From assembly GCA_030644725.1 (NCBI GenBank), contig CP130629.1, positions 124,001 through 188,000 of the forward strand: a DNA stretch of 64,000 nt, written 5' to 3'. Shown here in pieces: positions 38,631 to 58,145 of this stretch (within the stretch, counting starts at the first letter, position 1; each line of letters begins with the position of its first letter). The notes beneath the pieces are model-generated. The model did no database searches, was not told the origin of the DNA, and saw only the letters and a list, made by a program, of their open reading frames with translations. The stretch comes from Candidatus Electrothrix communis (GTDB taxonomy: Bacteria > Desulfobacterota > Desulfobulbia > Desulfobulbales > Desulfobulbaceae). A program made the translations under genes and the position numbers.

Positions 38631-40715
38631 TCAGCCTCGTTTGGCCCGATAGCGGAGCCAGAGTTCTTCGGCCAGTCCCTTGAGGTCAGCACCGAAGCCC
38701 ATAAACTCCGGCTCGGCCTTGACGTGTTTTTTGATCACCGAAATCAGCGACTCCTTGTTGTTGATGCCCGCAGGCGCTTTTTCCAGTAGCTTCAGCATTT
38801 TCTCCTCATCCACCGTATTGAGTAACTCAAGGAGCGAATAGGCCTTTTTCGCCCCTTCCGGGACAAAGCGATCCACCCCCGCCTCCAGGTTGATGCGCAG
38901 AGTTTCGCAATCCACGCTGAGTGATGGATTATCTGGGAGCGGAATGCGCTCGCTCACCTTCAATCCTTCAAAGCCCGTGTTGATCTCCCGCAGGGTGAGC
39001 ATAATCACGGTGAGAAAGGCCTTGGGCTGGGTGCCGGTGACGGCGATATGGATACGCCGGGCCTCGGTATCTGCCCGCACCACCGCTGTGGACTCCAACA
39101 GGGCATGCTCCAGCACCACCCCGCTGCGCCAGCGTAACCTGTCTTTGATTTCCTGATGCCGTTTGACGATGAAGCGGGGCATGACCGAGGGCGGCAGGAA
39201 GTCTTTATATTCCAGGAGGAAGCAAAGTGCATTATGGTCATCAAAGGTAAAGGAGGGTTCTGAGACTTCCAGCAGATCGGGGATAAGGATCTGCCCGTCT
39301 TCCAGTTCATAGCACAGCTCGAACTTCCGCATCAGCTCAATGAAATAGCCGTGATCCCGCCACTGGTAATGATAGGTGTCGCCTTCCTGAAAGCGGAGGA
39401 TTTGCCGAAGATCATCCTTGCTGAACAGGCCGTTGCGCTCAGCAATGGAGGGCGCATTGATAATTTTGTACACGGCCTCGGTCACCCATTTGGGATCCAG
39501 GACATGATTATCCGCCAGATCAAACTCGGTAAAGTGAATAACAATGCCCAGGTCGTGGAGGAAATCCACCAGGACTTTCTGGCTGATCTCGCCCGTCACC
39601 CCGGCCTCTCGACACACGGTTTCGCAATCCTCATAGCTGATACAGGGGTCGTTCATCTCCTCCAGCTGCGCTTTTGCCCGGAACCAGCTTGCGGGCCATT
39701 CATTGCGGGTCAGCGGTACCTTGCCCAGCTCTTCGCGCAGGGCTTGGCGGAAGTTTCGAATACCGTTGTTGGTGCGGCAGGATGTGCGATAGAACCCAAC
39801 AATGAAGGGATATTTCTTTTGGAGAAAAGGCCGGTTGAGATCAAAGCCGGGATTGGTGTCGTACTTGTTGAGCACCACCAGTACTGGCGAGCCGCCGCCA
39901 AAGGACTCGATATAGCGCAACCAGTATTCGGGCCGCTCGTCCCGCCTGCCGTCCAGGACTAGGACATAGAGGCTGCGGCGGGAAAGGAAAAACTGGTGGG
40001 TGGCGTGCATGATCTCCTGGCCGCCAAAGTCCCAGAGGTTGCAGCGCAGGGAGTGGTCACCGGTTTCCAGCTTCCAGTTCTTGATGCGGATACCGTGGGT
40101 GGTTTCTTCGCGCTTGTTGAACGGCTCTCCCCGAAGGCAACGGGTGAGCGAGGTCTTGCCGGATGCGCCTTCGCCTACCAGGATGACTTTTACCTCGGAG
40201 ACTGTTCGAGTGCCTTCTTCGGCTGAGGCGAAGTATTCTCGGATGGCTTCTATGCCTTGGGTTGCGAGTTCGTAGGGTGGGGAGGTTAGGGGGTTGTGGT
40301 GAAGGTAAAGCCGTTGCAACTTGGGTGTTTGACTGATTTCATGGGGCAGGGAGGAAAAAAGGTTACCTCTGAGGCTAAGTTTGGTCAGGTTTTTGAGCTG
40401 AAAGAGTTCCGGCGGCAGGGAGGAAAGTTGGTTTTCGCTGAGGTTCAGCGAGGCAAGGTTTGTTAGCTGGATAATTTTTGGCGGAAGAAGAGAAAGCTGG
40501 TTGCGGCCAAGGTTAAGCCAAGTCAGATTTTTTAGTTGAAAGAGTTCTTGAGGCAGGGATGACAGGTGATTGCCCCAGAGGGAAATCCTGGTTATACTCT
40601 TTATTTTAAAGAGTTCTGGAGGCAGCTCGGTCAACTCTTGCCCCACAAGATCAAGTTCGGTTGCCCCTATTTTAGCCGCGTTGTTAATCCGTCGCAACGC
40701 CTCTTCATGCCCCAT
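38631..40715 (-). CDS. ROCO-type protein: leucine-rich repeats with Roc GTPase and COR
   Basis: 694 residues. It opens EALRRINNAAKIGATELDLV, the usual start of bacterial ROCO proteins. Five or six 23-residue leucine-rich repeats follow (LTWLNLGRNQLSLLPPKI and similar), then a Roc Ras-like GTPase domain (about 175-340) with P-loop GEGASGKTS, switch LWDFGGQE and NKYD. A COR-type domain and a short C-terminal extension finish the protein. The bacterial family is a GTP-controlled dimer relative of LRRK2; cellular roles are mostly unknown. Confidence 0.92.
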   Translation of the reverse strand: MGHEEALRRINNAAKIGATELDLVGQELTELPPELFKIKSITRISLWGNHLSSLPQELFQLKNLTWLNLGRNQLSLLPPKIIQLTNLASLNLSENQLSSLPPELFQLKNLTKLSLRGNLFSSLPHEISQTPKLQRLYLHHNPLTSPPYELATQGIEAIREYFASAEEGTRTVSEVKVILVGEGASGKTSLTRCLRGEPFNKREETTHGIRIKNWKLETGDHSLRCNLWDFGGQEIMHATHQFFLSRRSLYVLVLDGRRDERPEYWLRYIESFGGGSPVLVVLNKYDTNPGFDLNRPFLQKKYPFIVGFYRTSCRTNNGIRNFRQALREELGKVPLTRNEWPASWFRAKAQLEEMNDPCISYEDCETVCREAGVTGEISQKVLVDFLHDLGIVIHFTEFDLADNHVLDPKWVTEAVYKIINAPSIAERNGLFSKDDLRQILRFQEGDTYHYQWRDHGYFIELMRKFELCYELEDGQILIPDLLEVSEPSFTFDDHNALCFLLEYKDFLPPSVMPRFIVKRHQEIKDRLRWRSGVVLEHALLESTAVVRADTEARRIHIAVTGTQPKAFLTVIMLTLREINTGFEGLKVSERIPLPDNPSLSVDCETLRINLEAGVDRFVPEGAKKAYSLLELLNTVDEEKMLKLLEKAPAGINNKESLISVIKKHVKAEPEFMGFGADLKGLAEELWLRYRAKRG

Positions 40716-42958: not shown

Positions 42959-43039
42959 AAACCGGCTGCCTCTTGTTTGCCGGTTTACTGTATGTGGACA
43001 GTGGAAATGGTCACATACGGACTCTTTTAAGGAGCAGCC
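42959..43039 (+). promoter_or_regulatory. Structured 5' leader of the folD / Wood-Ljungdahl operon
   Basis: Two hairpins lie in the last 80 bases before folD: AAACCGGC/GCCGGTTT (42959-42986) and GTATGTG/CACATAC (42990-43018). GGCTGC at 42964-42969, inside the first hairpin, is also complementary to GCAGCC at 43034-43039, directly after the AAGGAG ribosome site. So a competing fold could mask translation. It is not a riboswitch class I recognise. The remaining gap from 42474 has no gene. Confidence 0.4.
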
Positions 43040-43921
43040 ATGAGCGCAAAAATCATCAGCGGAACCGAAACCGCAAAGGCGATAAGGGAAGAACTGAAGA
43101 AAGAAGTTGCCGAGCTGGCCGGTAAGGTGGTTCCGGGCCTGGTTACTATTCTAGTGGGAGAAGATCCTGCTTCTCAGTCCTATGTGGCAGCCAAAAATAA
43201 AACGGCGCACGCTCTGGGAATTCATTCTGAGCAGGTTACCCTGGATGCCGAGACCAGCGAGGAAGACTTGCTGGCTCTGGTGGAAAAATATAATAACGAC
43301 GATAAAATTCACGGTATTTTGGTGCAGCTTCCTTTGCCGAAGCATATTGACGAGGGGAAGGTGTTATATGCCATTAATCCGGATAAGGATGTGGATGGTT
43401 TTCATCCGGTCAATGTCGGTAAAATGGTGGTCGGCGAGCAATGTTTTCTGCCCTGCACTCCGCACGGTGTACTTGAGCTGCTTACTCGTTCTGGGGTAGA
43501 GACCTCCGGTGCTGAAGTGGTTGTTGTTGGGCGTTCCAATATTGTTGGTAAGCCGGTAGCTAACTTGATGATGCAAAAGCGTGCTGCGGGCAATGCCACG
43601 GTCACCCTTTGTCATACCCGGACCAAGGATATGGATTTTCATACCAAGCGGGCTGATATCCTGATCGTTGCCGCCGGTGTTGCCAATATGATCAAAGCTG
43701 ATCAGGTAAAAGAAGGCGTGGTTATTATTGATGTCGGTGTGAATCGCGTCGGAATGACCGAGTCGGGCAAGGCCAAGCTGGCCGGTGATGTAGATTTTGA
43801 GTCAGTTAAAGAAAAGGCTGCCGCCATCACACCGGTGCCCGGCGGTGTCGGCCCAATGACCATCACCATGCTGATGAAAAACACCGTGCAAGCTGCCAGA
43901 CAGTTTGCCGGATTGGCGTAA
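43040..43921 (+). CDS. folD: Bifunctional methylene-THF dehydrogenase / methenyl-THF cyclohydrolase FolD
   Basis: 293 residues, normal length. Family motifs are VGEDPASQSYVAAKNK (with the catalytic Lys), GILVQLPLPKHID, KDVDGFHPVNVG and GRSNIVGKPVANLMM, with PVPGGVGPMTITML near the end. It interconverts methenyl-, methylene- and formyl-tetrahydrofolate in the methyl branch of the Wood-Ljungdahl pathway. It is the first gene of the plus-strand cluster and has AAGGAG in front. Confidence 0.96.
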   Translation: MSAKIISGTETAKAIREELKKEVAELAGKVVPGLVTILVGEDPASQSYVAAKNKTAHALGIHSEQVTLDAETSEEDLLALVEKYNNDDKIHGILVQLPLPKHIDEGKVLYAINPDKDVDGFHPVNVGKMVVGEQCFLPCTPHGVLELLTRSGVETSGAEVVVVGRSNIVGKPVANLMMQKRAAGNATVTLCHTRTKDMDFHTKRADILIVAAGVANMIKADQVKEGVVIIDVGVNRVGMTESGKAKLAGDVDFESVKEKAAAITPVPGGVGPMTITMLMKNTVQAARQFAGLA

Positions 43922-44018
43922 GAGCGTTACACGATAATTTTTAAGGATATGGAAACAGGCGACCTCGATAGCCTCGGGGTGCCTGCTCTCAGATTTCTGT
44001 TTTTGAGGAGACCGTACT

Positions 44019-46001
44019 ATGGCTAAGCCTAATCGCTGCGAAAGCTGCAACGATATAACCACCAGCTCAACACGCGACCTGCTGAATCAGGATCTTGCCA
44101 AGCAGGTGCGTACCGCCTATGACCGTATTGAGGATCGGGGTATGTCCGCCTGTCTGTTCGGCTCAGGAGGTACCTGCTGCCGTAACTGCAACATGGGGCC
44201 CTGTCAGATTATTGATGGTGTTGAATCTATGGTCGGAATTTGCGGCGCGACAGCAGATACGGTTGCGGCTCGAAATTTCGCACGGACCGTGGCAGCCGGT
44301 ACTTCGGCCCATACTGATCATGCTCGCGAAATGGTGCGCGGTTTCATTGCCACGGCAAAAGGGGAAACGCCGCACGAGATCAAGGATGTAGCGAAGTTGC
44401 ATGACATGGCTCAGCTCTTCGGCATCGAGACCGAAGACCGGGACAAGAACGAGATCGCTCTTGAACTGGGTGAGCGAGCTTTGGCAGAGTTTGGCAGCCA
44501 GGATAGTACTCCGCTGACGATGCTGAAGCGGGCTCCAGAAAAGCAGCAGAAGATCTGGAAGGAGCAAGGGGTTGAGCCACGCGGTATTGATCGCGAAGTG
44601 GTGGAAATGATGCATCGTACCCATATGGGTGTGGATCAGGAGTATCGTAACATCACAAAACAGGCCAGTCGTTGTGCCCTGGCAGACGGTTGGGGGGCTT
44701 CCATGCTTTCCACCGAGTTGACCGACATTATGTTTGGTACGCCAGTACCCAAGCGAGCCATTATTGATCTCGGCGTGCTCCGGGAGGATATGGTCAACGT
44801 CACCGTCCACGGTCATGAGCCGCTCTTGGCTGAATCTCTTTGTCTGGCAGCTGAGGACGAGGAAATTTTGGCTCTGGCGAAAAAAGTCGGTGCCAAGGGA
44901 ATCAATCTGGCCGGTGTTTGTTGCACCGGTAACGAGATCCTGATGCGTCGGGGTATTCCTGTGGCAGGCTCCTTTATCCAGCAGGAAATGGTTCTGGCCA
45001 CCGGTGCCGTCGAGGCTATGGTTGTGGACGTCCAGTGCGTCATGCAATCCCTCGCCCAGGTCGTGAAAGACAAGCATACTGATATCATCACCACCAATTA
45101 CCGGGCCAAGATGCCCGACGGTGTTCATATTCAGTTTGATGAGCATGATGCCTACAACTCGGCCAAGGAAATTTTGACCCGTGCCGTTGGCAATTTTAAG
45201 AAACGGGGCGCGTGTTATATCCCGAAAGACAGTAAATTCGATGTGGTTGTCGGCTTCTCCCACGAGACCATTAATTACATGCTCGGCGGTCGTTTCCGTC
45301 AGTCCTACCGTCCGCTGAATGATAATATCATCAACGGTCGTATTCGCGGAGTCGGTGCTCTGGTCGGTTGTGAGCATTATAAGCATTCCGATGATGTGCA
45401 TTTTGAGATCGCCAAAGAACTGATCAAAAATAACGTGCTGGTGCTGGCCACTGGTTGTGCAGCCCAGGCTCTTGGCCGTCGGGGATTAATGCGTCCAGAA
45501 GCAGCGACGGAGTATGCCGGAGACGGGCTGCGCGAGGTCTGTGAGACCGTGGGTATGCCACCGGTCCTTCATGTCGGTTCTTGTGTGGATAACTCTCGTC
45601 TCCTGATCGCCCTGACCGCTATGGTCAAAGAAGGTGGGTTGGGTGACGATATTGCTGATCTGCCTGCGGTGGGATCTGCGCCTCTGTGGATGAGTGAAAA
45701 AGCGGTTGCCATTGGTCAGTATTTTGTTGCCAGCGGTGCCCACGTCATCTTCCAGGATCTGCCCATCAACGGGGCCAAGAAATTTTCTGAGTATCTGTTA
45801 AAAGATATCAAAGAGGAGTTCGGGGCCTGTTGGGGCGTTGAAAGCACACCTCAGGATATTGCCAAGGCCATGATCGCGGCTATTGATGGAAAGCGTGAGG
45901 CCTTGGGTATCAATAAGAAGAAAGAGCGTGTACTCATGGATATGGCTATGCGTCGTGAGCTTGAAGGCGGCGGTACAGCCGGTGCCGGTTGCGGCGGTTG
46001 A
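44019..46001 (+). CDS. cooS: Anaerobic carbon monoxide dehydrogenase catalytic subunit
   Basis: 660 residues. The N-terminal cysteines (CLFGSGGTCCRNCNMGPCQI) bind the B and D clusters. GVCCTGNEILMRRGIP, VVDVQCVMQSL, GCEHYKHSDD, TGCAAQALGRRG and HVGSCVDNSRL are C-cluster (Ni-Fe-S) surroundings. It reduces CO2 to CO for acetyl-CoA synthase, or runs in reverse. The next genes encode the partner subunits. Confidence 0.95.
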   Translation: MAKPNRCESCNDITTSSTRDLLNQDLAKQVRTAYDRIEDRGMSACLFGSGGTCCRNCNMGPCQIIDGVESMVGICGATADTVAARNFARTVAAGTSAHTDHAREMVRGFIATAKGETPHEIKDVAKLHDMAQLFGIETEDRDKNEIALELGERALAEFGSQDSTPLTMLKRAPEKQQKIWKEQGVEPRGIDREVVEMMHRTHMGVDQEYRNITKQASRCALADGWGASMLSTELTDIMFGTPVPKRAIIDLGVLREDMVNVTVHGHEPLLAESLCLAAEDEEILALAKKVGAKGINLAGVCCTGNEILMRRGIPVAGSFIQQEMVLATGAVEAMVVDVQCVMQSLAQVVKDKHTDIITTNYRAKMPDGVHIQFDEHDAYNSAKEILTRAVGNFKKRGACYIPKDSKFDVVVGFSHETINYMLGGRFRQSYRPLNDNIINGRIRGVGALVGCEHYKHSDDVHFEIAKELIKNNVLVLATGCAAQALGRRGLMRPEAATEYAGDGLREVCETVGMPPVLHVGSCVDNSRLLIALTAMVKEGGLGDDIADLPAVGSAPLWMSEKAVAIGQYFVASGAHVIFQDLPINGAKKFSEYLLKDIKEEFGACWGVESTPQDIAKAMIAAIDGKREALGINKKKERVLMDMAMRRELEGGGTAGAGCGG

Positions 46002-46022
46002 GCCGCGAAAAGCATTAATGCG

Positions 46023-46079
46023 GTAGGGGCAGATCCCCGTGTCTGCCCAGTCTGGGCGAACACAGGGATTCGCCCCTAC
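46023..46079. repeat. Paired intergenic palindromes (GTAGGGGCAGAC family), copy 6
   Basis: GTAGGGGCAGATCCCC...GTCTGCCC at 46023-46048 and GGGCGAACACAGGG...CGCCCCTAC at 46054-46079 form a mirrored pair between cooS and the metF-acsD gene. The copy near 56.0 kb has the same two-part build. Confidence 0.8.
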
Positions 46080-46156
46080 GGCATAAAAGAATTAAGGCAT
46101 TGAGTTCAGCAGAACAAAATTCTGCCCGCAGGGTGGATCAGGTATAAGGAGGATTG

Positions 46157-48784
46157 ATGAAATCGGGGAGCAATTTGGAGCGGGTGCTCAGGAGCGGCGC
46201 ATTTGCCGTGACCGGTGAGCTGGGACCGCCGAAGAACAGTGACCCTGATGTGGTCAGAGAGAAGGCGAGAATCCTGAAAGGCAACGTAGATGCGGTCAAT
46301 ATCACTGATTGTCAGACCGCGATAGTCCGGATGTCATCCATCGGTGCCGGGCTGCTGGCCCAGGCCGAAGGGTTGGAGCCGGTTATTCAGATGACCTGTC
46401 GGGACAGAAACCGGATCGGTATGCAGTCGGATCTGCTGGCTGCATCTGCGCTGGGATTGAAAAACTTGCTCTGCCTGACTGGCGATCATCAGAAATTCGG
46501 TAATCATCCCGGCGCAAAAGGCGTATTTGATATGGATTCTATCCAGCTGTTAGGGATGATCCGGGATATGCGAGACGGGAAAAAATTTCAATGCGGCGAG
46601 GAAATTAAAGGGAAAGGAACAGATCTCTTTCTTGGTGCAGCTGCTAACCCCTTTGCCTATCCTTATGAGTTCCGAGCGGTGCGCATGGGGAAAAAGATTG
46701 CCAACGGCGCTGATTTTATCCAGACCCAGATAATTTATAATCTGGATCGATTTACCGAGTTCATGAAGACAACCTGCGAGCTTGGCCTGCATGAGAAGGC
46801 CTATATCCTCGCTGGCGTGACCCCGCCGAAGTCTGTGGGGATGGCACGCTACATGAAGAAGTTTGTGCCCGGCATGGATGTAACCGATGAGGTTATCAAG
46901 CGGATGCAGGGGGCAAAGGATAAAAAGCAGGAAGGAATTAACATCTGTGTTGATATTATCAATCAGGTCAAAGAAATTCCCGGTGTGGCCGGTGTTCATG
47001 TCATGGCCATTGAGTGGGAGGAGGCGGTTCCTGAAATTTGTGAGAGAGCAGGCCTGCTTCCGCGCCCGACCTTTGATGATGATGCAGCAAGCGTACCTGA
47101 GACCATTGTTGCGGCAAGGGAAACCATAGAGGTACGAACTGCTGCTGGTGCTGCCGATGATGTTCTGGAACAAGCCAAGGCCGAAGCTGAAAAAATTATA
47201 GCCGCCGCCCGGACGGAAGCTGCCGCTCTTTCTGCTCAGGCTGCTCAGTCCGGTGAAGCGACAACGGAAAATGCTGCTGCCAGCGGACAAGCGGCAGATG
47301 ATGCAGGAGAACATGCGATGAATGAAAAAGGACGCCGTGAGGCGTTAGAGTCAGTCAATCAGGGCCTGAATGCCTTGAAAAAGGCCTACGGCCTGAGCGA
47401 TGATCAGTTTGATGCATTGATGAATTTTGTTGATGCGGCATCGGTACTGAATAAAGAGCCAGAGGGGCTGACACAACAACCTGTCGGAGCAACTCCTGCA
47501 CCTGCTGCTCCCGCAGCTGAAGAAAAAGCTGATGATACCGCAGCAAAAGCGGCGGCGGAGAAAGCTGAAGCTGAAGCAAAGGCCAAAGCGGAAGCTCAAG
47601 CCAAGGCTGATGCAGAGGCCAAGGTGAAAGCCGAAGCTACTGCTCAGGCAGAGGCGGAAGCAAAAGCAAAGGCGGAAGCAGAGAAAAAGGTTGCCGCAGA
47701 AGCTGCTGCCAAGGCAGAAGCAGAAAAGAAGGCCGCAGAAGCAAAAGCAGCTGAAGCAAAGGCAGCCTCGGTTGCCGCTCCATCTGATCTGGATGCTCCG
47801 GTTCTGTCCACCGATGAAACACCTTTTTCCGAGCGCGTGACCAAGGTGCCTGCATCCAGCTATAAGACGGCGTATTCCGGCGCGATCCGCGAAGTGACCA
47901 TGGGTAACGGCGATAAGGCCGTGACCGTGGGCGGTGCCACTTCTCTGCCTTTCCATCTTTTTGAAGGCGAGATAGGCAATAAGCCGCTCATCGCTATGGA
48001 GATCATGGATGTTCGACCGGATAACTGGCCCGACACCCTGACCCAATATTTTGATGATGTTATGGACAGCCCAGTGGATTGGGCCAAGAAATGCGTTGAT
48101 GTGTATAAGGCTGATGCCCTGAATATCTGGCTCAACGGTACAGATCCCAACGGGGAAAATCGTTCGGCGGCAGATGCGGCCAAGGATGCGGCAGCTGTGA
48201 TTGAGGCTGTTGATGTACCGATCATCATTTGGGGTTGCGGTAATTCCGAGAAGGATACGGAAACCCTGCGTGAGGTCACCTCCTTGATCGGTGACAAGAA
48301 GGTCTGTCTTGCTCCTCTTGAGGATGCCAACTACCGCGCTATCGGTGCAACGGCAATGGCTTTTCAGCATCCTATGGTTGCGGCCTCGCCCATTGACGTC
48401 AACCTGGCCAAGCAGTTGAACATTCTCCTGGAGAATCTCGGGGTGCCGCTTGGTACGGTTATGATGGATCCGTCAGTTGGTGCGCTGGGCTACGGTATTG
48501 AATACACCTATTCGGTTATGGAGCGTATTCGCATAGCAGCATTGACCCAGAAAGATGAAAAACTCCAGGTGCCGATTATCTGTAACCTCGGACGTGAGGT
48601 TTGGAAGGCCAAAGAGGTTGGGCTGCCCACTGATGAACTGCTGGGTGATCAGGAAAGTCGTGGCATTATGATGGAGGCGATCACCGCATCCTGTATGCTT
48701 ATGGCCGGTGGTGAAGTCCTGATCATGCGCCATCCCAAGGCGGTCAATATGACCAAGGCGCTCATTAACGGTCTGGCCGGTTAA
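46157..48784 (+). CDS. MetF-AcsD fusion: methylene-THF reductase joined to corrinoid protein small subunit
   Basis: 875 residues from the ATG at 46157, after GGAGG. Residues 1-310 are a MetF-type methylenetetrahydrofolate reductase (TGELGPPKNSD, NITDCQTAIVRMSS, CLTGDH, GAAANPFAYPYE, FIQTQIIYNLDRF). A linker (about 325-540) contains a helical SDDQFDALMNFVDAA segment and a long Ala/Lys/Glu-rich coiled-coil run. Residues from about 545 are AcsD, the TIM-barrel small subunit of the corrinoid iron-sulfur protein (GNKPLIAMEIMD, DALNIWLNGTDPNG, VMMDPSVGALGYGIEYTYS). There is one continuous frame. The chain would put methyl-THF formation and the corrinoid methyl carrier on one polypeptide. No MetV gene is adjacent. 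Confidence 0.88.
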   Translation: MKSGSNLERVLRSGAFAVTGELGPPKNSDPDVVREKARILKGNVDAVNITDCQTAIVRMSSIGAGLLAQAEGLEPVIQMTCRDRNRIGMQSDLLAASALGLKNLLCLTGDHQKFGNHPGAKGVFDMDSIQLLGMIRDMRDGKKFQCGEEIKGKGTDLFLGAAANPFAYPYEFRAVRMGKKIANGADFIQTQIIYNLDRFTEFMKTTCELGLHEKAYILAGVTPPKSVGMARYMKKFVPGMDVTDEVIKRMQGAKDKKQEGINICVDIINQVKEIPGVAGVHVMAIEWEEAVPEICERAGLLPRPTFDDDAASVPETIVAARETIEVRTAAGAADDVLEQAKAEAEKIIAAARTEAAALSAQAAQSGEATTENAAASGQAADDAGEHAMNEKGRREALESVNQGLNALKKAYGLSDDQFDALMNFVDAASVLNKEPEGLTQQPVGATPAPAAPAAEEKADDTAAKAAAEKAEAEAKAKAEAQAKADAEAKVKAEATAQAEAEAKAKAEAEKKVAAEAAAKAEAEKKAAEAKAAEAKAASVAAPSDLDAPVLSTDETPFSERVTKVPASSYKTAYSGAIREVTMGNGDKAVTVGGATSLPFHLFEGEIGNKPLIAMEIMDVRPDNWPDTLTQYFDDVMDSPVDWAKKCVDVYKADALNIWLNGTDPNGENRSAADAAKDAAAVIEAVDVPIIIWGCGNSEKDTETLREVTSLIGDKKVCLAPLEDANYRAIGATAMAFQHPMVAASPIDVNLAKQLNILLENLGVPLGTVMMDPSVGALGYGIEYTYSVMERIRIAALTQKDEKLQVPIICNLGREVWKAKEVGLPTDELLGDQESRGIMMEAITASCMLMAGGEVLIMRHPKAVNMTKALINGLAG

Positions 48785-48872
48785 TGAAGATTGCCTACTT
48801 GCTTAACGTAATGCAAGGCTGAAGTCTTGAATCTGAACTCTGAACCGTCTCTACCCTAAGGGAGTTGTCTCA

Positions 48873-51080
48873 ATGTCGAAGATTATCTGCTCCGCAGCGA
48901 TTCGCGGTGCCCAAAAAATCGTGGATATGGCTGAAGCGTCCTACGAGGAGGCCTTAAAGAAGTACGGCCCTGAACAGGAAGTTTCTTTTCCCAATACTGC
49001 ATATTACCTGCCGATTATTTATTCCATGCTTGGAGCAAAGGTGGAAAAACTCGGCGATATGAAAGAAATTTTTCAGGAGTGTCGCAAGCTCCTGCCGGCT
49101 GTTGTTTCCGAGGATATTTGGTTGCCCTACTTGGCTCCTGCCTTGGATGCCGGAATGGCTACCTATTTTGCCGAGGAAATGTACGAGGCAATTGAGTACC
49201 TGAATTCACCGAATTACTACACCAAGACCGAAGATCCCACAGCAGATAATATCTGGTTGGGCGCGGCAGACGATATTATTTTTCGGAAACGTGGCGTCGA
49301 GTTTGTTGACGGCACCGCTCCAGGTTTTGCCGCCATTGTCGGCTCACCGTCAGATCCTGAGGTTGCTTCCAAGATTGCTTTGGAATTGCAGGAAAAAAAT
49401 CTCTATATCTTCATGCATACTGATTCCGATGGGAATTATATGCCTGATATGCTCGCGAAAAACGGCGTACAGGTCGGTTGGAACACCCGCCTGGTGCCTT
49501 TTGGTAAGCGCTATACCTCGGTGGTTTTCTCCATCGGTTTCGCCTGTCGCGTGGCCATGGCCTTCGGTGGTGTGAAGCCGGGTGATTCCAGAGCGAACCT
49601 TATTTACAACAAAGACCGAACCTACGCCTTTGTTATGCCCTTTGGGCAGGTCAGCGACGAGTGGTATGCCAATGCTGCCGGTGCTATCAACTGGGGTTTC
49701 CCGACGATCTCCGATTATGCTATTCCAGAGATCCTGCCTACAGGTATCTGTACCTATGAGCATGTGGTATCCGATATACCCCATGACGAGATCGTCCAGA
49801 AGGCCATTGAGGTGCGTGGCCTGAAGGTCAATGTCGCCAAAATTGATATTCCCATGTCCTTTGGTCCGGCCTTTGAGGGTGAGCGTATCCGGAAAGACGA
49901 TCTCTTTATGGAATGCGGTGGTGGTCGAACCACCGGTGTTGAGGTCTTGATCTCCAAGGAAATGGACGAGATTGAAGACGGTCTGGTGACCCTGGAAGGT
50001 CCGGATATCTCTGACATCGAATTAGGGCAGAATCTGCCCATCGGTATCCTGGTTGAGGTTGCTGGTCGCGAGATGCAGTCGGATTTCGAGCCTATCCTGG
50101 AGCGTCAGTTTCATCATCTGATGAACTATATCCAGGGCATCATGCATATCGGTCAGCGAAACATCATGTGGGTTCGTATCGGTAAGGGTGCTGTGGAAAA
50201 AGGGTTTTCCTTTAAGCATCTCGGTGTAGTCCTGCATGGTAAGTTGCATCAGGAATTTGGTGCGATTTTGGACAAGGTCCAGGTGAAAATTTACACTGTG
50301 CAGGATAAGGTGGAAGAGGTTATGGAGATCGCCAAGCAGGTGTATGAAGAGCGTGACCTGCGCCTCGGCTCCATGACGGATGAGACCGAAGATGTTTTCT
50401 ACTCCTGTACTCTATGTCAGTCCTTTGCACCCAGCCATGTCTGCGTGATCACACCGGAGCGTATCGGTATGTGTGGCGCCTATAACTGGTTGGATGGCAA
50501 GGCCTCTTTTCAGATCAATCCCACCGGTCCGAACCAGCCCATTGATAAGGGCGAGTGTACAGATGCTGATAACGGATATTTCACTGGTATCAATGAGTTT
50601 GTTAACCAAGCTTCCCGTGGCGCGGTGCCTGAGGTCAGTTGCTATTCTTTGATGAATAATCCCATGACCGCCTGTGGCTGTTTTGAGGCTATTGCAGCCA
50701 TGTTGCCGCAATGTAACGGTATCATGGTGGTTAATCGTGATTACAGGGGTATGACCCCTTCCGGCATGAAGTTCACCACCCTGGCCGGTATGGCTGGCGG
50801 CGGTATGCAGACACCGGGTTTCATGGGTGTATCCAAGCATTACATGTCCAGTAAAAAACTGTTTAAGGCTGAAGGTGGCGTTAGGCGAATGGTCTGGATG
50901 CCGAAAATTCTCAAGGATGAGATCAGCGAGAAGCTCAAGGCCTTATGTGAGCATGAGGGAATGCCGGAGCTTTACGACATGATTGCCACAGAAGAGCAGG
51001 GCACCACAGAGGAAGAGATCCTTGCCTTCTTGAAGGAGAAAGGTCATCCTGCTCTGGAAATGGAAACAGCCATGGGCTGA
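48873..51080 (+). CDS. acsB: Acetyl-CoA synthase (CO-methylating), catalytic subunit
   Basis: 735 residues, full length. It opens SKIICSAAIRGAQKIV. The A-cluster cysteines are in FYSCTLCQSFAPSHVC and GMCGAYNWLD, with the nickel ligands of MTACGCFEAI. It joins CO from CooS, a methyl group from the corrinoid protein and CoA to acetyl-CoA. GGGAG precedes the ATG by 9 bases. Confidence 0.96.
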   Translation: MSKIICSAAIRGAQKIVDMAEASYEEALKKYGPEQEVSFPNTAYYLPIIYSMLGAKVEKLGDMKEIFQECRKLLPAVVSEDIWLPYLAPALDAGMATYFAEEMYEAIEYLNSPNYYTKTEDPTADNIWLGAADDIIFRKRGVEFVDGTAPGFAAIVGSPSDPEVASKIALELQEKNLYIFMHTDSDGNYMPDMLAKNGVQVGWNTRLVPFGKRYTSVVFSIGFACRVAMAFGGVKPGDSRANLIYNKDRTYAFVMPFGQVSDEWYANAAGAINWGFPTISDYAIPEILPTGICTYEHVVSDIPHDEIVQKAIEVRGLKVNVAKIDIPMSFGPAFEGERIRKDDLFMECGGGRTTGVEVLISKEMDEIEDGLVTLEGPDISDIELGQNLPIGILVEVAGREMQSDFEPILERQFHHLMNYIQGIMHIGQRNIMWVRIGKGAVEKGFSFKHLGVVLHGKLHQEFGAILDKVQVKIYTVQDKVEEVMEIAKQVYEERDLRLGSMTDETEDVFYSCTLCQSFAPSHVCVITPERIGMCGAYNWLDGKASFQINPTGPNQPIDKGECTDADNGYFTGINEFVNQASRGAVPEVSCYSLMNNPMTACGCFEAIAAMLPQCNGIMVVNRDYRGMTPSGMKFTTLAGMAGGGMQTPGFMGVSKHYMSSKKLFKAEGGVRRMVWMPKILKDEISEKLKALCEHEGMPELYDMIATEEQGTTEEEILAFLKEKGHPALEMETAMG

Positions 51081-51294
51081 TTAGCGCTAAATCGGGGCTG
51101 ATCGGCATTGAGGTGGCGTTGAATCGACGCTTAATCAGTACTGATTTCGTACTGATTTGCGTGAGAGAAGAGAGCACCGCATCCGGCAGGCAGATCTGCC
51201 GGATGCGCCCAAGATATAACAGGTACTCAGAGAACAAACGAACAGCCGCCGGGCGAATCCATTGAAAAACGGCAGCTGCATGGGAGGATAGATA

Positions 51295-52644
51295 ATGGCG
51301 TTAACCGGTATACAGATACTCAAAATGCTGCCCAAGAAGAATTGCGGCGAGTGTGACATACCTACCTGTCTCGCCTTTGCCATGAAAGTGGCTGCCGGGC
51401 AGGCCGAAATAGAAGCATGTCCTTATGTAAGCGATGAGGCAAAGGCTACCATCGGCGAGGCTTCAGCTCCTCCGATTCGTACCATCAAAATTGGTGCCGG
51501 TGATGCGCAGTTCACCGCAGGCGGTGAAACCTGCCAGTTCCGGCATGAGAAGCGGTTTGAGAATCAGACCGGCTTGGCTGTTCTGATTGCGACAGACGAG
51601 GATGCCGCCTCCATTGACGGCAAGATTAAGCGAGCCAACGATTTTGAGTACGAGCGTGTCGGGGTAATGATGCGTAATAATCTGGTCGCTATTAAGGATA
51701 AGGGTGGTGCTTCTCTGGCTGATATGGCCAAGAAGGTTATGGAAGGTGCTCCTAAGCAGGCTATCATTCTCATGAGTGATAATGTGGAGAGCCTCAAGGC
51801 TGGAGCCGAGGCCTGTGGTGACAATAAGCCGTTGCTCTACGGTGCCACCGGCGAAAACGCGGAGGCCTTTGTCGACCTTGCCAAGGCAACCGGTTGTGCA
51901 ATCGGTGTGAAGGGCAAGAACCTTGATGACTTGGTGGAGACAGCGGATAAGTTGATCGCTGCCGGGGTCAAGGATATGGTTATTGACACCGGTGCCCGGA
52001 CCCTTAAGGGAGCCTTTGAGGATAATGTAGTGGCCCGTCGCGCTGCGGTTAAGGATAAATTCAAGGCCCTTGGTTTTCCGACCATCACTTTTCCCTGCGA
52101 AATGTGTGATGATCTGATGATGGAAGCCATGATTGGTTCTGTTTTGATCGCCAAGTACGCAGGCATTACGGTCTTCTCGGATCTTCAGGGTGAGATACTG
52201 TTCCCGCTTCTGCTTGAGCAGCTGAATATCTTTACGGATCCGCAGCGGCCAATGGTTGTGGCTGAGGATATTTATCCGGTCACCGGACCGGATGAAAATT
52301 CACCGGTACTGATCACCTGTAACTTCTCGCTCACCTACTTTATTGTGTCCGGTGAGATTGAGGGCTCCAAGGTGCCCAGCTGGTTGCTGATCAAGGATAC
52401 TGAAGGTCTGTCCGTATTGACTGCTTGGGCTGCTGGTAAATTCGGTGCCGATCTGATTGCCATGTTTGTCAATAAATCCGGAATTTTGGATAAAGTCAAG
52501 CATCGTGAGCTGATCATTCCGGGCTATCTGGCCACCATCAAGGGTGAGCTGGAAGAAGAGCTGCCTGACTGGACCATTACCATCGGTCCTCGTGAGGCCG
52601 GACATCTGCCTTCCTTCCTCAAGGAATGGAAACCAGCTGCTTAA
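51295..52644 (+). CDS. acsC: Corrinoid iron-sulfur protein large subunit
   Basis: 449 residues. The N-terminal 4Fe-4S domain has KKNCGECDIPTCLAFA and EACPYV. A TIM barrel and a C-terminal B12-binding domain follow (SLTYFIVSGEIEGSKVPSWL, GYLATIKGELEEELPDW). With the AcsD half of the upstream fusion it carries the methyl group on cobalamin from methyl-THF to AcsB. A GGGAGG ribosome site lies 8 bases before the ATG. No gene for the methyltransferase AcsE is seen in the window. Confidence 0.94.
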   Translation: MALTGIQILKMLPKKNCGECDIPTCLAFAMKVAAGQAEIEACPYVSDEAKATIGEASAPPIRTIKIGAGDAQFTAGGETCQFRHEKRFENQTGLAVLIATDEDAASIDGKIKRANDFEYERVGVMMRNNLVAIKDKGGASLADMAKKVMEGAPKQAIILMSDNVESLKAGAEACGDNKPLLYGATGENAEAFVDLAKATGCAIGVKGKNLDDLVETADKLIAAGVKDMVIDTGARTLKGAFEDNVVARRAAVKDKFKALGFPTITFPCEMCDDLMMEAMIGSVLIAKYAGITVFSDLQGEILFPLLLEQLNIFTDPQRPMVVAEDIYPVTGPDENSPVLITCNFSLTYFIVSGEIEGSKVPSWLLIKDTEGLSVLTAWAAGKFGADLIAMFVNKSGILDKVKHRELIIPGYLATIKGELEEELPDWTITIGPREAGHLPSFLKEWKPAA

Positions 52645-52939
52645 ATCGGGCTGACGGTGCAGTTTTGATGTGTACAAGACAGCCCTGTCGTCGCAAGATG
52701 ATGGGGCTGTTTGGTCTGGGAAAGACAAAAGGTCGATTCCTGTCCCCTATATAATGGGCTTGAAGGATGATAGCATGGACCTGATGTGAGTGTGTATAGA
52801 GGAAAATAAAAAACGATGAGCTATAAGCCTGTAACGTATGTTGGGGGCTATGAAATTTTCGTAGGTTTGCTCTTTATTTTAGCAATAATTAGACTGTTAT
52901 TATAACAACTAATAAGTACAATAAACACTGGAGATTGCA

Positions 52940-55900
52940 ATGGGAAAAGGAATGGAACACAGGGCCGGATCAGTCATGGTCGTGGGCGGAGGTATCGCCG
53001 GGATACAAGCTGCCCTTGACCTGACTGAACTTGGTTATTACGTCTACCTGCTGGAAAAAGCACCGGTTGTGGGCGGGGTTATGGCCCAGCTCGACAAGAC
53101 CTTTCCGACCAATGACTGCTCTCTCTGAATACTTGCACCTAAGCTGGTAGAGGCCGGTCGGTCTCCAAATATAGAGATGATAACCAATGCAGATCTTTTG
53201 GCATTGGACGGAAAACCGGGTGATTTCACTGTTAAGGTACGGAAACGCCCTCGTTATATTGATGCGGACAAGTGTACAGCCTGTGGGTTGTGTACCCAAT
53301 ACTGTCCCAAGCATCTTTCAGATGCGTACAATGAAGGATTGGCTCTGACCCGTCCTATTCATATTGACTATGCCCAGGCCGTGCCTGCGACATATTATAT
53401 TGATCCTTCAGCCTGTATGTCTGTGCAGCACGATACCTGCCAGATCTGCGTGCCGGTTTGCCAGAGTCATGCCATTGACTTCAGCCAGCAGCCGGAAGAG
53501 GTTGAGATCAAGGTCGGGGCAATGGTGTTGTCACCAGGCTTCGGCAGGATTGATGACGCCACGCTGGAGAAATACTCCTATGGCGAGCACCCGGACGTGG
53601 TGACCGCTGTTGAGTTTGAGCGTATGACCACGGCTTCGGGACCCTTCCTCGGCGAGGTGAAATGCTTCTCCGACGGTCGCCATCCCAAATCCATGGCCTT
53701 TATCCAATGCGTTGGTTCCAGGGATCTGGGTTGCAATAACGGTTACTGTTCTTCGGTTTGCTGTATGTACGCAATCAAGGAAGCAATGGTTGCCAAGGAG
53801 CATGATCCGGAAGTAGACATCACAGTCTACTACATGGATATCCGCACCCAGGGTAAGGATTTTGATAAGGCCAGGGAACGGGCTGAGGCTATGGGCGTAA
53901 AGTTTGTCCGCGCCAAGGTCGCCGGTGTGACTCCTTGGGGGAATAACCTTCGCCTGACCTACTCCACCTTGGATGGCAAACACGAATTCAAGCCCTATGA
54001 TATGGTGGTTCTTTCTGTGGGCCTGGAAGCGCCTAAGGATGCCCAAGGTATTGCCGAGATGACCGGTATTGAACTCAATCATTATGATTTTGCCAAAACC
54101 GATACCTTTAGCCCGTTAAACACCAGCGTTGAGGGTGTGGTTGTGGCCGGGGCGTTCCAGGGACCCAAGGATATTCCCGAGTCAGTTACCCAGGCATCGG
54201 CAACAGCCGGTATTGTTGCCGGGATGCTGCAACAACAGCGTGGGTTAGGGATTGTCCATAAGTCCTACCCGGACGAGAAGCCCATGGACGAAGAGGTCCG
54301 CATAGGAGTCTTTGTCTGCCATTGCGGTATCAATATCGCCTCGGTGGTAGATGTCCGTAAGGTGGAAGACTCGGTTGAGGGCATGGAAGGGGTTGTCTAC
54401 CATACCGATTCTCTCTATTCCTGTTCTGCGGATGCGGTGAAGACGCTCAAGGATCGGATCATTGAACATAACCTGAACCGGGTAGTCATTGCCGCCTGTT
54501 CACCCAGAACCCATGAGCCGCTCTTTCAGGAAACGCTCAAGGATGCAGGCCTGAACCGTTGTTTGATCGAGATGGTCAATATTCGCGATCAATGTTCTTG
54601 GGTCCATGCTGGCGAGCCGGAAGCGGCCACGGATAAATCACAAGATCTGGTGCGTATGGCTGTGGCCAAGGCCAGAGGAATGCGGCCTTTGCCGGAGCAG
54701 ACCGTGCCGGTTACCCCCAAGGCCTTGATCATCGGGGCAGGCATTGCCGGGATGACCGTGGCGCTGAACTTGGCAGAGCAGGGTTTTGATTCTGTATTGG
54801 TGGAAAAAGGGGAAAAACTGGGCGGCAGCCTGGGTCTGCTGAATCATACCCTGGATACCCACGAGACTGCTTCTCATCTGCAAAAGCTGGTGGCCAAGGT
54901 TGAGGCGAATAAGCATATTGACGTGCTGACCAAGGCTGAGTTGAAAGATTTTTCTGGCTTTATCGGTAATTTTTCCTCTGTGGTTGGAGAAGAGGGCGGT
55001 GCCGAGCATACGGTTGATCACGGCGTTGTGGTCCTGGCAACTGGTGGGCATGAGCATCGTCCTGAAGGCTATCAGCTGGAGGAGAACAGCAAGGTGCTCA
55101 CCCAGACGGAATTGGAAAAACGTTTGGCAGGAAAAGCAAAAAATCGGGCGCCCAAATCTATCGTTATGATCCAGTGTGCCGGATCTCGCGGAGATGACCT
55201 GAAGTATTGTTCCAAGGTTTGCTGTAACCATGCGGTCAAAAATGCGTTGACGATCAAAGAACTGAATCCGGCCTCACAGGTGATTGTTCTGTATCGTGAT
55301 ATGCGGACCTACGGTTATGCTGAGGATGCCTATCGGGAGGCCCGGCTTAAGGGCGTTATTTTTATCCCTTATGAACTGGATAGGAAACCCGTGGTCTCTG
55401 AAGAAGGGAAAAAATTGCAGGTCACATTTTTTGACTCCCTGCTTCAAGAGGAGGTCGAAATGACCCCTGAGCTGGTCGCTCTGTCCGTGGGTATTGTCCC
55501 CGATGGAACCGAGGATCTGAGCAAATTGCTCAAGGCCCCGCTTACCGATGACCGTTTCTTCCTGGAGGCCCATGTTAAGTTGCGGCCTGTTGAATTGCCG
55601 GTTTCCGGTGTCTATGTCTGCGGTCTGGCCCACGGCCCGAAACCGGTGGATGAGACCATTGCCCAGGCCCAGGCAGCTGCGGCCAAGGCGGCCATCCCGC
55701 TGGTCAAGGGTGCCGTCAGCATTGATCCGATTGTTTCAGTGGTGGAGCAGGAAAAATGCATCGGTTGCGGTATCTGTGCCAGCCTTTGTCCTTTTGGTTC
55801 CATTGAGATGATCAAGGTGGACAAGAAGCGCAAGGCGCAGACCATTGCTGCATCCTGTAAGGCCTGCGGTATCTGCTCCAGCCATTGTCCGACCTTTGCC

Positions 55901-55990
55901 ATCTCTATGGGCGGGTTCACCAATGAGCAGATTATGGATCAGATTACTGCCTTCGGTAATGTGAAGGTAGCAGAACCGGTCGAGGCGTAA
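52940..55990 (+). CDS. hdrA: Heterodisulfide reductase subunit A-like protein, selenocysteine form
   Basis: 1016 residues when the TGA at 53126-53128 is read as Sec63. Before it the frame reads FPTNDCSL and after it [11 protein letters not shown], which together are the HdrA motif NDCSxC-ILAPK with Sec in the Cys place. The chain holds an N-terminal FAD fold ([15 protein letters not shown]), 4Fe-4S clusters ([22 protein letters not shown]), a second HdrA-type FAD half ([13 protein letters not shown], near 600) and two C-terminal ferredoxin motifs ([24 protein letters not shown]). It probably bifurcates or relays electrons with MvhD. No HdrB or HdrC is adjacent. Confidence 0.93.
53150..53165 (+). 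promoter_or_regulatory. SECIS-like hairpin for hdrA
   Basis: GAGGCC pairs with GGTCTC around a GGTC loop (one G-U pair). The loop starts about 30 bases after the UGA, in the range used by bacterial SECIS elements, whose apical loop normally has GGU. It is within the coding sequence. Confidence 0.65.
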
Positions 55991-56011
55991 AGCGTAATCT
56001 GGTAACGCACT

Positions 56012-56071
56012 GTAGGGGCAGACCCCTGTGTCTGCCCTGATTATCGGGCGAACAGGGGGATTTGCCCCTAC
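56012..56071. repeat. Paired intergenic palindromes (GTAGGGGCAGAC family), copy 7
   Basis: GTAGGGGCAGACCCC...GTCTGCCC at 56012-56037 plus GGGCGAACAGGGGG...GCCCCTAC at 56046-56071, between hdrA and mvhD. Almost the same build as the copy at 46.0 kb. Confidence 0.8.
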
Positions 56072-56110
56072 GCCTGATTTGAAAAAACAACATCTATGCG
56101 AGGTGTTTTG

Positions 56111-56710
56111 ATGAGCAACGATTTCAGTCCCAAAATTCTGGGTTTTTTATGTAACTGGTGCTGCTATGCAGCTGCCGATGCAGCCGGGGTCTCCCGGTTT
56201 CAGTACCCGCCCAACCTGCGCACCATCCGGGTTATGTGTACCGGTCGGGTTGATCCCGCCTTTATCCTGCGCGGTTTTATCGAAGGCGCAGACGGTATTT
56301 TTACCGGCGGCTGACAACACGGAGAATGTCATTACCAGGTAGGTAATTACGATGCAATGGGTGTGGATGCGCTGGTCAGAAAGGTACTGGAAGACGTGGG
56401 TATCCGCAAAGAACGTTATGATTTACAATGGGCTTCAGCTGCTGAGGCACCGCGCTTTGTTCAGTTGATTACTGGATTTACCGAGCGCATGAAAGATCTC
56501 GGCCCGCTGGGCGAGGCTGAGGGTCTGTCTCAAGAAGAGATCAAAGCAAAGTTGGAAAAAGCCTTAGCTGTGGTCTCGGACCAGAAGGTCCGGGTCAGCT
56601 TTGGCAATGCTGCCAAGGCAGTGCGTAAGGATGCGGTTTGGACACCGGAGCATATTGACGAGGTTGTCACAACCAAGATGGCTAAAACCCTGGATAAGGC
56701 TTTGGCCTAA
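56111..56710 (+). CDS. mvhD: MvhD-type iron-sulfur electron-transfer protein, selenocysteine form
   Basis: 199 residues with the TGA at 56312-56314 read as Sec68. The frame reads GADGIFTGG before it and QHGECHYQVGNYDA after it. MvhD normally has GCHPGDCHYxxGN there, so Sec replaces the first Cys of the 2Fe-2S ligand set. The start is the ATG at 56111, 7 bases after GAGGTG, rather than the ATG at 56096. N-terminal cysteines are in LCNWCCYAAAD. About 60 residues beyond the usual MvhD length form a helical, charged tail. It is the partner of HdrA and passes electrons between it and a hydrogenase, formate dehydrogenase or MetF. Confidence 0.93.
56331..56347 (+). promoter_or_regulatory. SECIS-like hairpin for mvhD
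   Basis: ATTACC pairs perfectly with GGTAAT around an AGGTA loop that contains the GGU expected in bacterial SECIS loops. It starts about 19 bases after the UGA, so the loop is at the usual distance. Confidence 0.75.
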
Positions 56711-56747
56711 GCCTACTTGCTTTAATAAAATATTTTGTTGTTGATAC

Positions 56748-56785
56748 AAGGCACTGTTTTCTTCGGAAAATAGTGCCTTTTTGTT
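56748..56785 (+). terminator. Rho-independent terminator of the Wood-Ljungdahl cluster
   Basis: GGCACTGTTTTC pairs with GAAAATAGTGCC around TTCG, followed by a T run, about 40 bases after the mvhD stop. It closes the folD-mvhD unit. Confidence 0.85.
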
Positions 56786-56904
56786 TTTGCATAATATTAT
56801 TATCCTTTCTTGCCATGTATACATTTTATTTATGTTGAAAAATGTTTTAAAAAATTGATCTAAGGATAGTTTTTTAAATAAATATTTTTGTTGTTGTTCA
56901 TGTG

Positions 56905-56941
56905 AGGCGTTGTTTTCTTTTGAAAACAGCGCCTTTTTTTA
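56905..56941 (+). terminator. Second, diverged copy of the terminator
   Basis: GGCGTTGTTTTC pairs with GAAAACAGCGCC and is followed by seven T. The surrounding bases (a TTGTTGTTG lead and a gap of the same size) echo the first terminator, so about 160 bp seem duplicated. The AT-rich gap from 56942 to 57278 holds no gene that I can support. Confidence 0.75.
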
Positions 56942-57278
56942 TTTTTATATGATATTATTAATTTTTCTTAATTTGTGGTATGGGGGTGCTGTCTTTTTTT
57001 GTCATATTTTTTTTATTGGTTTTTCTTTTTGGTGTAAAAAATTGTTTTTATTGACTTTAATTTTATTAAATATGAAAAAAACTGTACTAAGTCATTTGTT
57101 GGTGATACAAAAAGATATGAAGCGAATAGGTATTGATTGTTTCTTCTATTTGAAGATATTTATTTTCTCATTATTTTGAGTAAAGTAAGAATCTGAGTAC
57201 ATGTCGTTTTTTATTCACCAATTCTTTTGCTCTTGTTTAGGATAGCAAAAGGATATTTTCTAACTAAAGGAGAAGGAA

Positions 57279-57776
57279 ATGAAAATAAGAATTAATTTTA
57301 TGCTTAGTGTAATGGCTCTTGGTATTTTGTTAATGACAGTACCCGTTAATGCTTTTTCCGCAACGCAGATGTTTGAACAGGCACTGCAATCCTTGCCCCA
57401 GAAAGATCGTGATACAATCATGGATAAAATGGCTGAGCGGCATATACGACTCATGGAAGAACAAAAAGGGCTTGAGGCGTTAACTTCGGTTGAGAAGGAT
57501 CAGTTGGCAACAGCAATGGCTCTTCAGGAAAAACCATTATTAGGGATGTTCCTTGATCAACGCGAAGTGCCAGCCCACTTAATGGACAAGGTGAGAGGTA
57601 AGGTGATGGATACTATTGCCGCTGATATTGTATCTCATAATAATGAGTTATGTATGCCGATTATTCAACCGTATATGTCCAAGGAAGTAAGGAAGAGGAT
57701 TCAAGTGACGACTATCCCTATGTTTACTTCAGGGATGATTGAAAGGGTTCGGGCGCGTTTTCAAAAAGAGTTATAA
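57279..57776 (+). CDS. Small secreted protein, function unknown
   Basis: 165 residues. AAGGAGAAGG lies directly before the ATG. The signal peptide is FMLSVMALGILLMTVPVNAFSA. The mature part is helical and rich in Met, Gln and charged residues (QSLPQKDRDTIMDKMAERHI, QKGLEALTSVEKDQLATA). It ends YMSKEVRKRIQVTTI... and resembles the shorter protein that follows in composition and in its PxxxMxDKVR motif (VPAHLMDKVRGKV against IQPVMIDKVRDQI). The DNA is more AT-rich than the neighbourhood. No known family. Confidence 0.75.
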   Translation: MKIRINFMLSVMALGILLMTVPVNAFSATQMFEQALQSLPQKDRDTIMDKMAERHIRLMEEQKGLEALTSVEKDQLATAMALQEKPLLGMFLDQREVPAHLMDKVRGKVMDTIAADIVSHNNELCMPIIQPYMSKEVRKRIQVTTIPMFTSGMIERVRARFQKEL

Positions 57777-57824
57777 ACTTTTTAATTAGATTGATTGTTC
57801 TTAACACGAAAATGAGGAAGGAAA

Positions 57825-58145
57825 ATGAAAAAGATAATAATAAGATTACTGCTCGGACTGACGGCTGCTGGTTTGATTATGGCTGGTTCCGCTGCTGCAA
57901 TAGAGGTGGACGTCAACGCTGTTGCAACAATTGATCAATTATTGGTTCAGATGCAACAGGAGATGCAGCAGGAGATGATTAACACAAACTACGCTACGAG
58001 GTTGCTGAAAAATCAGATGCGTGCCCAGATGATGGCAGAGCGTGTCCCTCGGAACTTCATGAAGGACAGCATTCAGCCTGTCATGATAGATAAAGTCCGT
58101 GACCAAATAAAGTTGCAGCAGATGGAGACCGTGACTCTTCGCTAA
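57825..58145 (+). CDS. Small secreted protein, function unknown, related to its neighbour
   Basis: 106 residues, 48 bases after the preceding gene, with GAGGAAGG before the ATG. The signal peptide is LLLGLTAAGLIMAGSAAA. The mature part is a Gln/Met-rich helix (LLVQMQQEMQQEM) ending in PVMIDKVRDQIKLQQME. It probably forms a two-gene unit with the gene at 57279. No family is recognised. Confidence 0.7.
   Translation: MKKIIIRLLLGLTAAGLIMAGSAAAIEVDVNAVATIDQLLVQMQQEMQQEMINTNYATRLLKNQMRAQMMAERVPRNFMKDSIQPVMIDKVRDQIKLQQMETVTLR

Follow-up and report, generated by a model that had tools for sequence, protein, structure and literature searches.

The window analysed here, a stretch of 64,000 nucleotides of the Candidatus Electrothrix communis genome (contig CP130629.1, positions 124,001 to 188,000 of the forward strand), contains at 46157-48784 (+ strand) a gene, metF-acsD, that fuses methylenetetrahydrofolate reductase (MetF) to AcsD, the small subunit of the corrinoid iron-sulfur protein. 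Inside this gene lies a second, in-frame initiation signal, and we propose that the one gene probably specifies two in-frame products, the 875-residue fusion and a 488-residue AcsD. The fused frame, the conserved signal within it and the selection acting on both are legible in the aligned homologues. In the fusion, the N-terminal MetF is followed by a linker of variable length, a short helical-looking segment that is conserved (called "mid"), an Ala/Lys/Glu rod and, at the C-terminus, AcsD. The features of the gene are the following (coordinates of the window).

46147..46152, + strand: Shine-Dalgarno sequence AGGAGG for the full-length product, 4 bases upstream of ATG 46157
46157..47071, + strand: MetF domain, residues 1-305 (PF02219, E 4e-35)
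47072..47317, + strand: linker 1 (residues 306-387), of variable length, no stop in 78 Desulfobulbales-type sequences
47305..47309, + strand: internal Shine-Dalgarno sequence AGGAG, 8 bases upstream of the internal ATG
47318..47320, + strand: internal in-frame start ATG, Met388, of the predicted short AcsD (488 residues, 47318-48784)
47318..47476, + strand: mid segment, residues 388-440 (MNE..R..AL..V..GL..LK....L...QF.AL), N-terminus of the predicted short product
47477..47848, + strand: linker 2, residues 441-564, the Ala/Lys/Glu-rich rod
47849..48784, + strand: AcsD, small subunit of the corrinoid iron-sulfur protein, with the stop codon, residues 565-875 (PF03599, 4djd_D)

An earlier note, made from the letters of this DNA alone, had proposed looking for the same domain order in other genomes, and 94 distinct related sequences were found to carry both domains in one frame (distinct meaning not identical, near-copies being counted apart). 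Among these, 78 were chosen by the protein motif G[ED]..MNE, rows with unknown residues being left out, and are referred to as the Desulfobulbales type; the 16 that lack MNE either come from other orders or group in the tree with sequences from other orders, and together with further stretches they make up 30 distinct fusions that are not of the Desulfobulbales type. The same note had suspected an internal start near 47325: the start itself stands, at 47318 instead, with its AGGAG at 47305-47309. All 78 Desulfobulbales-type fusions have this ATG with either AGGAG (61 sequences) or GGAG (17) upstream. GGAG and ATG were likewise present in 11 of 11 new fusions picked without regard to the motif (20 stretches were taken, 9 of which were copies), these being relatives of the first set and not independent lineages. 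Elsewhere in the 78 genes, GGAG stands at the same distance from 134 of 2349 other in-frame ATGs. When aligned ATGs in any frame are considered, the internal start is the sole one with an upstream GGAG in 78 of 78, the best other in-frame site reaching 22 of 78; the next-ranked ones (63 and 54 of 78) are overlapping out-of-frame ATGs at the same site. One out-of-frame ATG there opens a two-codon reading frame (ATG CGA TGA, 47313-47321, + strand) whose stop overlaps the in-frame ATG, and an ATG occurs at that place in 63 of the 78 homologues.

Codon usage within the signal is also constrained. The codon of Gly384 is GGA in 78 of 78 sequences, against 15% expected from the share of GGA among the Gly codons of these genes, which makes it the most extreme of 474 scored codon columns; at the 49 other conserved Gly columns, the top single codon never exceeds about 63%. 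The neighbouring Ala383 is encoded by GCA or GCG in 59 of the 59 sequences that have Ala there (among the first 71 sequences), against 36% expected. As a positive control, the region near the true start also stood out, codon 3 ranking second and codon 5 fifteenth (amino acids with at least four codons) and codon 2 sixth among the rest. Over codons 381-388, synonymous change (pS) falls to 0.047, about a fifth of the 0.25-0.26 measured in the two enzyme domains, a comparison based on 11 close pairs and a small number of sites. The mean folding energy is -9.5 kcal/mol at the internal start, -8.4 at the first start and -14.8 at random in-gene sites, and 81% of random sites on average fold as strongly as the internal start or more, a moderate effect. 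The seven windows of the gene with the lowest GC content at third codon positions start at codons 375-381, just upstream of the internal ATG. An internal promoter in place of an internal ribosome site was considered and rejected: a simple scan gave two promoter-like sites against 1.7 expected, neither of them just upstream of 47318. For comparison, the Shine-Dalgarno sequence of the first start reads AGGAGG in 32 of the 78 homologues, AGGAG in 13 and AGGA in 26, and is absent from 7.

The internal site appears to add a product and not to replace the fusion. Linker 1 occurs in 22 distinct lengths in the 78 sequences, with stops in frames 0, +1 and +2 in 0, 71 and 78 of them, respectively; because these sequences had been pre-chosen as open frames, the evidence lies in the variety of lengths that keep the frame and in dN/dS, not in openness alone. 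For 11 close pairs, dN/dS is 0.30 in linker 1, 0.04 in MetF and 0.07 in AcsD. Judged by these values, linker 1 is under protein-level selection and the full-length frame is maintained. The earlier note had held that a strong internal ribosome site would speak against a fusion; such a site is indeed present (78/78 and 11/11), but it does not abolish the fusion, since the linker stays open across its 22 lengths and is selected. Were the short AcsD and a free MetF all that counted, linker 1 should somewhere have tolerated a stop or a frameshift; in the Desulfobulbales-type loci examined, the breaks are single-base shifts elsewhere or gaps resembling sequence errors.

The two enzyme identities read in the earlier note are upheld. 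Consistent with the earlier reading of MetF and AcsD in one frame, translation of 46157-48784 gives a single open frame of 875 residues without internal stop, matched by PF02219 and PF03599. The match to PF02219 (MTHFR) scores 121.9 bits against a cut-off of 24 and aligns residues 7-299 with positions 2-287 of the 287 of the profile. Residue E21 aligns with a Glu of the Thermus methylenetetrahydrofolate reductase and D110 with an Asp of the Thermus and human enzymes; both are invariant in 47 aligned fusions, and we take them to be the catalytic glutamate and the flavin-site aspartate. The domain does not reach TIGR00676, the equivalog of the NAD(P)H enzyme (56.3 bits, cut-off 293.7), and this divergence means that the electron donor is not readable from the enzyme name. 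In the C-terminal part, PF03599 (CdhD/AcsD) matches residues 579-822 (E 3e-42, 145 bits against a cut-off of 24.8; best stretch, profile 1-225 of 387) and, among solved structures, a corrinoid iron-sulfur protein small subunit, 4djd_D, comes closest, with E 3.9e-83 over 289 residues. This part exceeds the cut-off of the subunit-delta model NF003376 (381 bits against 280) and stays below those of three other delta models, namely NF040759 WLP_AcsD (318 of 430 bits), NF003377 (483 of 527) and TIGR00381 (211 of 253).

Between the domains, about 260 mostly variable residues (82 + 53 + 124) include the mid segment, which is conserved across the aligned fusion frames (86 frames, 71 distinct), looks helical by eye and has distant forms in many fusions outside the Desulfobulbales type. 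No Pfam family matched it above cut-off, and its weak TAL-repeat, TPR-like and HTH scores were taken as chance. The core of linker 2 (residues 465-538, 74 residues) is 50% Ala, 20% Lys and 20% Glu, without Leu or Ile, and its periodicity has an every-second-residue signal and no heptad signal. The composition is that of the Ala/Lys/Glu linker described in the earlier note, and a rod-like Ala-rich helix would fit the sequence better than the coiled coil proposed there.

The genome is a single contig of 4.85 Mb. The fusion, used as query, matches four places, this gene and three other MetF-like genes; only one of the four matches covers the AcsD part, and no second AcsD was found with this query. 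A homologue of AcsE is a separate gene elsewhere (around 3471473-3472084), whose closest solved relatives are AcsE structures (PDB 2e7f, E 4e-41) and whose best NCBIfam matches are AcsE models, all below their cut-offs. In the corrinoid protein, AcsD and AcsC pair one to one. Because the only AcsD found with this query is the fused one, all AcsD must come from this gene. If it made nothing but the fusion, every corrinoid protein would have to carry one MetF, a constraint that an internal start would lift. We therefore suggest the following working. Initiation at ATG 46157 would give the MetF-linker-AcsD fusion, and initiation at the internal ATG 47318 a free AcsD retaining the mid segment and the rod, both forms being able to pair with AcsC as corrinoid iron-sulfur protein. 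AcsD output would in this way rise above MetF output, and the fraction of corrinoid protein carrying a tethered MetF would feed methyl-tetrahydrofolate locally to AcsE, which should carry out the methyl transfer itself. Since the AcsE homologue is separately encoded, the fusion would act as a tether and dosage device and not as a methyl-transfer shortcut. By our own estimate, a helix of about 110 residues would span about 16 nm and one enzyme in a 20-nm sphere would amount to about 50 micromolar, so that the gain in local concentration would be useful but modest. We infer that both products accumulate, the short one in excess, and that local methyl-tetrahydrofolate is raised.

A wider picture, which we hold only tentatively and regard as rather doubtful, is that the mid segment and rod shared by fusion and free AcsD let the two co-assemble in a single acetyl-CoA synthase body with few MetF-bearing copies among many free ones, forming, with the neighbouring selenocysteine-type HdrA and MvhD, a self-dosed Wood-Ljungdahl metabolon whose MetF-to-corrinoid ratio would be set by an internal site fixed since the Desulfobulbales-type ancestor.

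Several points weigh against the production of two products from this gene. The motif used for choosing the 78 sequences includes Gly384 and Met388, and the invariance of these amino acids is partly built in, although codon choice and the unfiltered test on 11 fusions are unaffected; kinship among the sequences inflates the counts, an effect for which the remaining codon columns in this set provide a control. The conserved site was not found in the 30 other fusions, and hence the short product is not required by every fusion. Genomes of the same order also exist with a separate MetF and a stand-alone AcsD, and there the fusion is dispensable. Free AcsD could, moreover, come from proteolysis of the fusion, and a Shine-Dalgarno-like site within a gene can act as a pause. 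On this last account the fusion would be the sole product, GGAG and low structure slowing the ribosome so that MetF folds before AcsD. The site does lie between the two domains, and pausing at such sites has been proposed in bacteria; yet a pause needs no start codon, whereas ATG and Asn-Glu are kept at fixed spacing in 78 of 78, the composition of the region resembles that of a true start and the site lies about 80 residues beyond the end of the MetF domain, which leaves this account quite unlikely.

The strength of the internal signal would equally suit a gene that is effectively two, with AcsD made from the internal start, MetF left with a long C-terminal tail that is trimmed and the fusion as a transient by-product, and a two-gene form does exist in a one-contig genome (L165, see below). 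However, the dN/dS of linker 1 and a frame held through so many length classes argue for a useful fusion, and a useless readthrough would be expected to be lost in some lineages; the breaks observed in the Desulfobulbales-type loci examined resemble sequence errors or gaps. We consider this explanation unlikely. The covalent link between two domains adjacent in the pathway invites the thought that the methyl group passes directly from MetF to the AcsD-bound corrinoid without AcsE. This is very improbable, given the separate AcsE homologue, the long and mostly variable stretch between the domains and a free AcsD form that would lack MetF. The logic of the earlier note, with MetF acting one step before and AcsD one step after methyl transfer, is upheld, and its idea of one complex holding the methyl-producing and methyl-carrying sites survives as a loose tether but not as channelling. 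An artefact of sequencing or assembly that removed a stop, to which the broken frames of a few relatives (L058/L022 and L098) might seem to point, is virtually ruled out: the gene has its own start with AGGAGG, the 94 distinct fused sequences include one-contig genomes, and in the broken relatives the defects, single-base shifts or N gaps, lie elsewhere. Chance, and the lost stop raised in the earlier note, can accordingly be set aside.

The spread of the fusion was assessed within and beyond the class. Among 144 genomes of the same class (hand count), 79 are fused, 66 of them matching most of the query without interruption and 13 by two matches in one open frame; the others comprise 15 incomplete cases (contig ends, gaps, breaks), 29 with MetF-level scores only and 21 without match at the threshold. 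A stand-alone AcsD of another type was present in all of the 15 MetF-only genomes searched (15 of the 29). Outside the class, a search of 296 genomes of the phylum, with extra stretches, gave one split gene and at least 25 genomes with a fusion, whose linkers differ greatly in length. In a collection of named genomes, 78 distinct loci were found among the best 80 of 417 stretches encoding relatives, and one-contig genomes (G000, G005, G007, G012 and G039) also have the fusion; in viral contigs no relative of it was found.

In an AcsD tree of 89 rows, including 22 stand-alone forms and rooted at its midpoint, all fused AcsDs and one split form share a single clade (100/99), which excludes the 22 stand-alone AcsDs. 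The latter have a C-terminal extension of 179-217 residues (20 of 22) that is missing from fused AcsD, and their barrel begins at most 55 residues from the frame start (21 of 22). The Desulfobulbales type is a clade of 37 rows (100/98), all 37 with the internal site, and its sister is a group with long linkers. In these sister fusions (L154-L162, L164, L107 and L109) the linkers reach about 400-460 residues, some with repeats that look TPR-like by eye (VVNLVAKG.. in L107). Four Thermodesulfobacteriaceae-like fusions (L132, L133, L134 and L152) have an ATG at residues 356-364 with GGAGG or AGGAG 5-8 bases upstream of it, possibly an independent internal start, although four cases are not enough for a judgement. 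The split form, L165, comes from a one-contig genome and is nested among the fused forms, where local support is moderate (98/77); its MetF stops at TAA and its acsD starts 15 bases later, with MQNEKELLK, just before the matching segment. This position suggests that the two-gene form was derived by fission, a direction that depends on the midpoint root. It is the one two-gene form traced. Apparent splits within the Desulfobulbales type were rejected as such, being single-base shifts or N gaps: L098 is shifted by one base in the mid segment, L059 and L073 have N gaps in linker 2, and L058 and L022 (Ca. Electrothrix aarhusensis) have a shift inside MetF. In L033, AcsD is interrupted by a stop close to the end of a contig, and the other incomplete loci are cut off by contig ends. 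Fusion and traced split offer a natural series for how enzymes of one pathway become tethered.

The fusion itself is not new, contrary to the earlier note, which knew of no described case. A 'mthfr/acsD' fusion is listed for Desulfurivibrio alkaliphilus AHT2 in a 2016 genome paper (Melton et al., PMC5016858), which cites the earlier acs cluster of the delta proteobacterium MLMS-1 (Pierce et al. 2008). It unites the same two enzymes in one gene of an acs cluster in a member of the Desulfobulbaceae; in the accessible part of that paper, however, the fusion appears only in an abbreviation list, and internal start, second product, linker and spread are unmentioned. The MetF and AcsD of acetogens and other sulfate reducers are homologous to each domain but are encoded by separate genes. 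In the available main text of a study on the Wood-Ljungdahl pathway in Desulfobacterota (PMC12827605), no word starting with 'fus' was found. The description of a Desulfobulbus epibiont lists, in the portion available, acsABC, acsE and metF without the word acsD (PMC7117923), as expected if acsD is hidden in the fusion; the record of that epibiont (L056) does contain a fused gene. Annotation may conceal AcsD under 'methylenetetrahydrofolate reductase', and a functional AcsD unit beginning at Met388 is suggested.

The internal start, on the other hand, seems new, "undescribed" being provisional: no mention of it was found in literature searches that did not pair acsD with that term and from which subscription papers were mostly missing. 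Devices of this sort, in which a second form of a subunit arises from an internal in-frame start, are already known. Two-polypeptide phage endolysins use an in-frame internal start with its own ribosome binding site to yield a full-length and a C-terminal product, some assembling one full-length subunit with several short ones, according to the part of PMC9430671 available; they are unrelated lysis enzymes in which both products were experimentally demonstrated, whereas for metF-acsD the case is drawn from sequence. Similarly, internal in-frame initiation adds the subunit Cas11b to the same complex, a CRISPR effector with an unrelated protein for which experimental demonstration is reported in the accessible text of PMC11899642. 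The MetFV-HdrABC methylene-tetrahydrofolate reductase complex of Moorella, as far as covered in the available part of PMC10553843, also ties MetF to an Hdr system, and here hdrA and mvhD lie downstream of the acs genes; the difference is that MetF is fused to AcsD and that the MetV-family genes are elsewhere. In a group that includes cable bacteria, the ratio of parts of a carbon-fixation complex might be traced to one codon and one start.

The AcsD part is encoded within the CO dehydrogenase/acetyl-CoA synthase cluster, acsB and acsC following directly downstream. The local order is folD, cooS/acsA, metF-acsD, acsB, acsC, hdrA and mvhD, MvhD being a subunit of the Moorella complex as well.

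43040..43921, + strand: folD (PF00763 and PF02882)
44019..46001, + strand: cooS/acsA, CO dehydrogenase catalytic subunit (TIGR01702, above cut-off)
48873..51080, + strand: acsB, acetyl-CoA synthase (NF040764, above cut-off)
51295..52644, + strand: acsC, corrinoid iron-sulfur protein large subunit, partner of AcsD (NF003195, above cut-off)

No Rfam family matched at gathering scores in 43000-58000. The hdrA gene (52940-55990, + strand) contains one in-frame TGA (53126-53128), probably a selenocysteine codon, and the start given by the open reading frame finder (53177) is too late. The mvhD-like gene beside it (56111-56710, + strand) has an in-frame TGA at 56312-56314 (GGU-QHGECHY), which makes it a second probable selenoprotein gene, and a SelA homologue is encoded in the same genome. 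The MetV-family (PF12225) genes are located elsewhere in the genome; at about 1073854-1075269 (L004, L194), MetF and a MetV-type DUF5981 (PF12225) apparently share one 505-residue frame. Finally, 38631-40715 (- strand) of the window encodes a 694-residue protein in which leucine-rich repeats and a Roc-COR-like GTPase region were recognised by eye.

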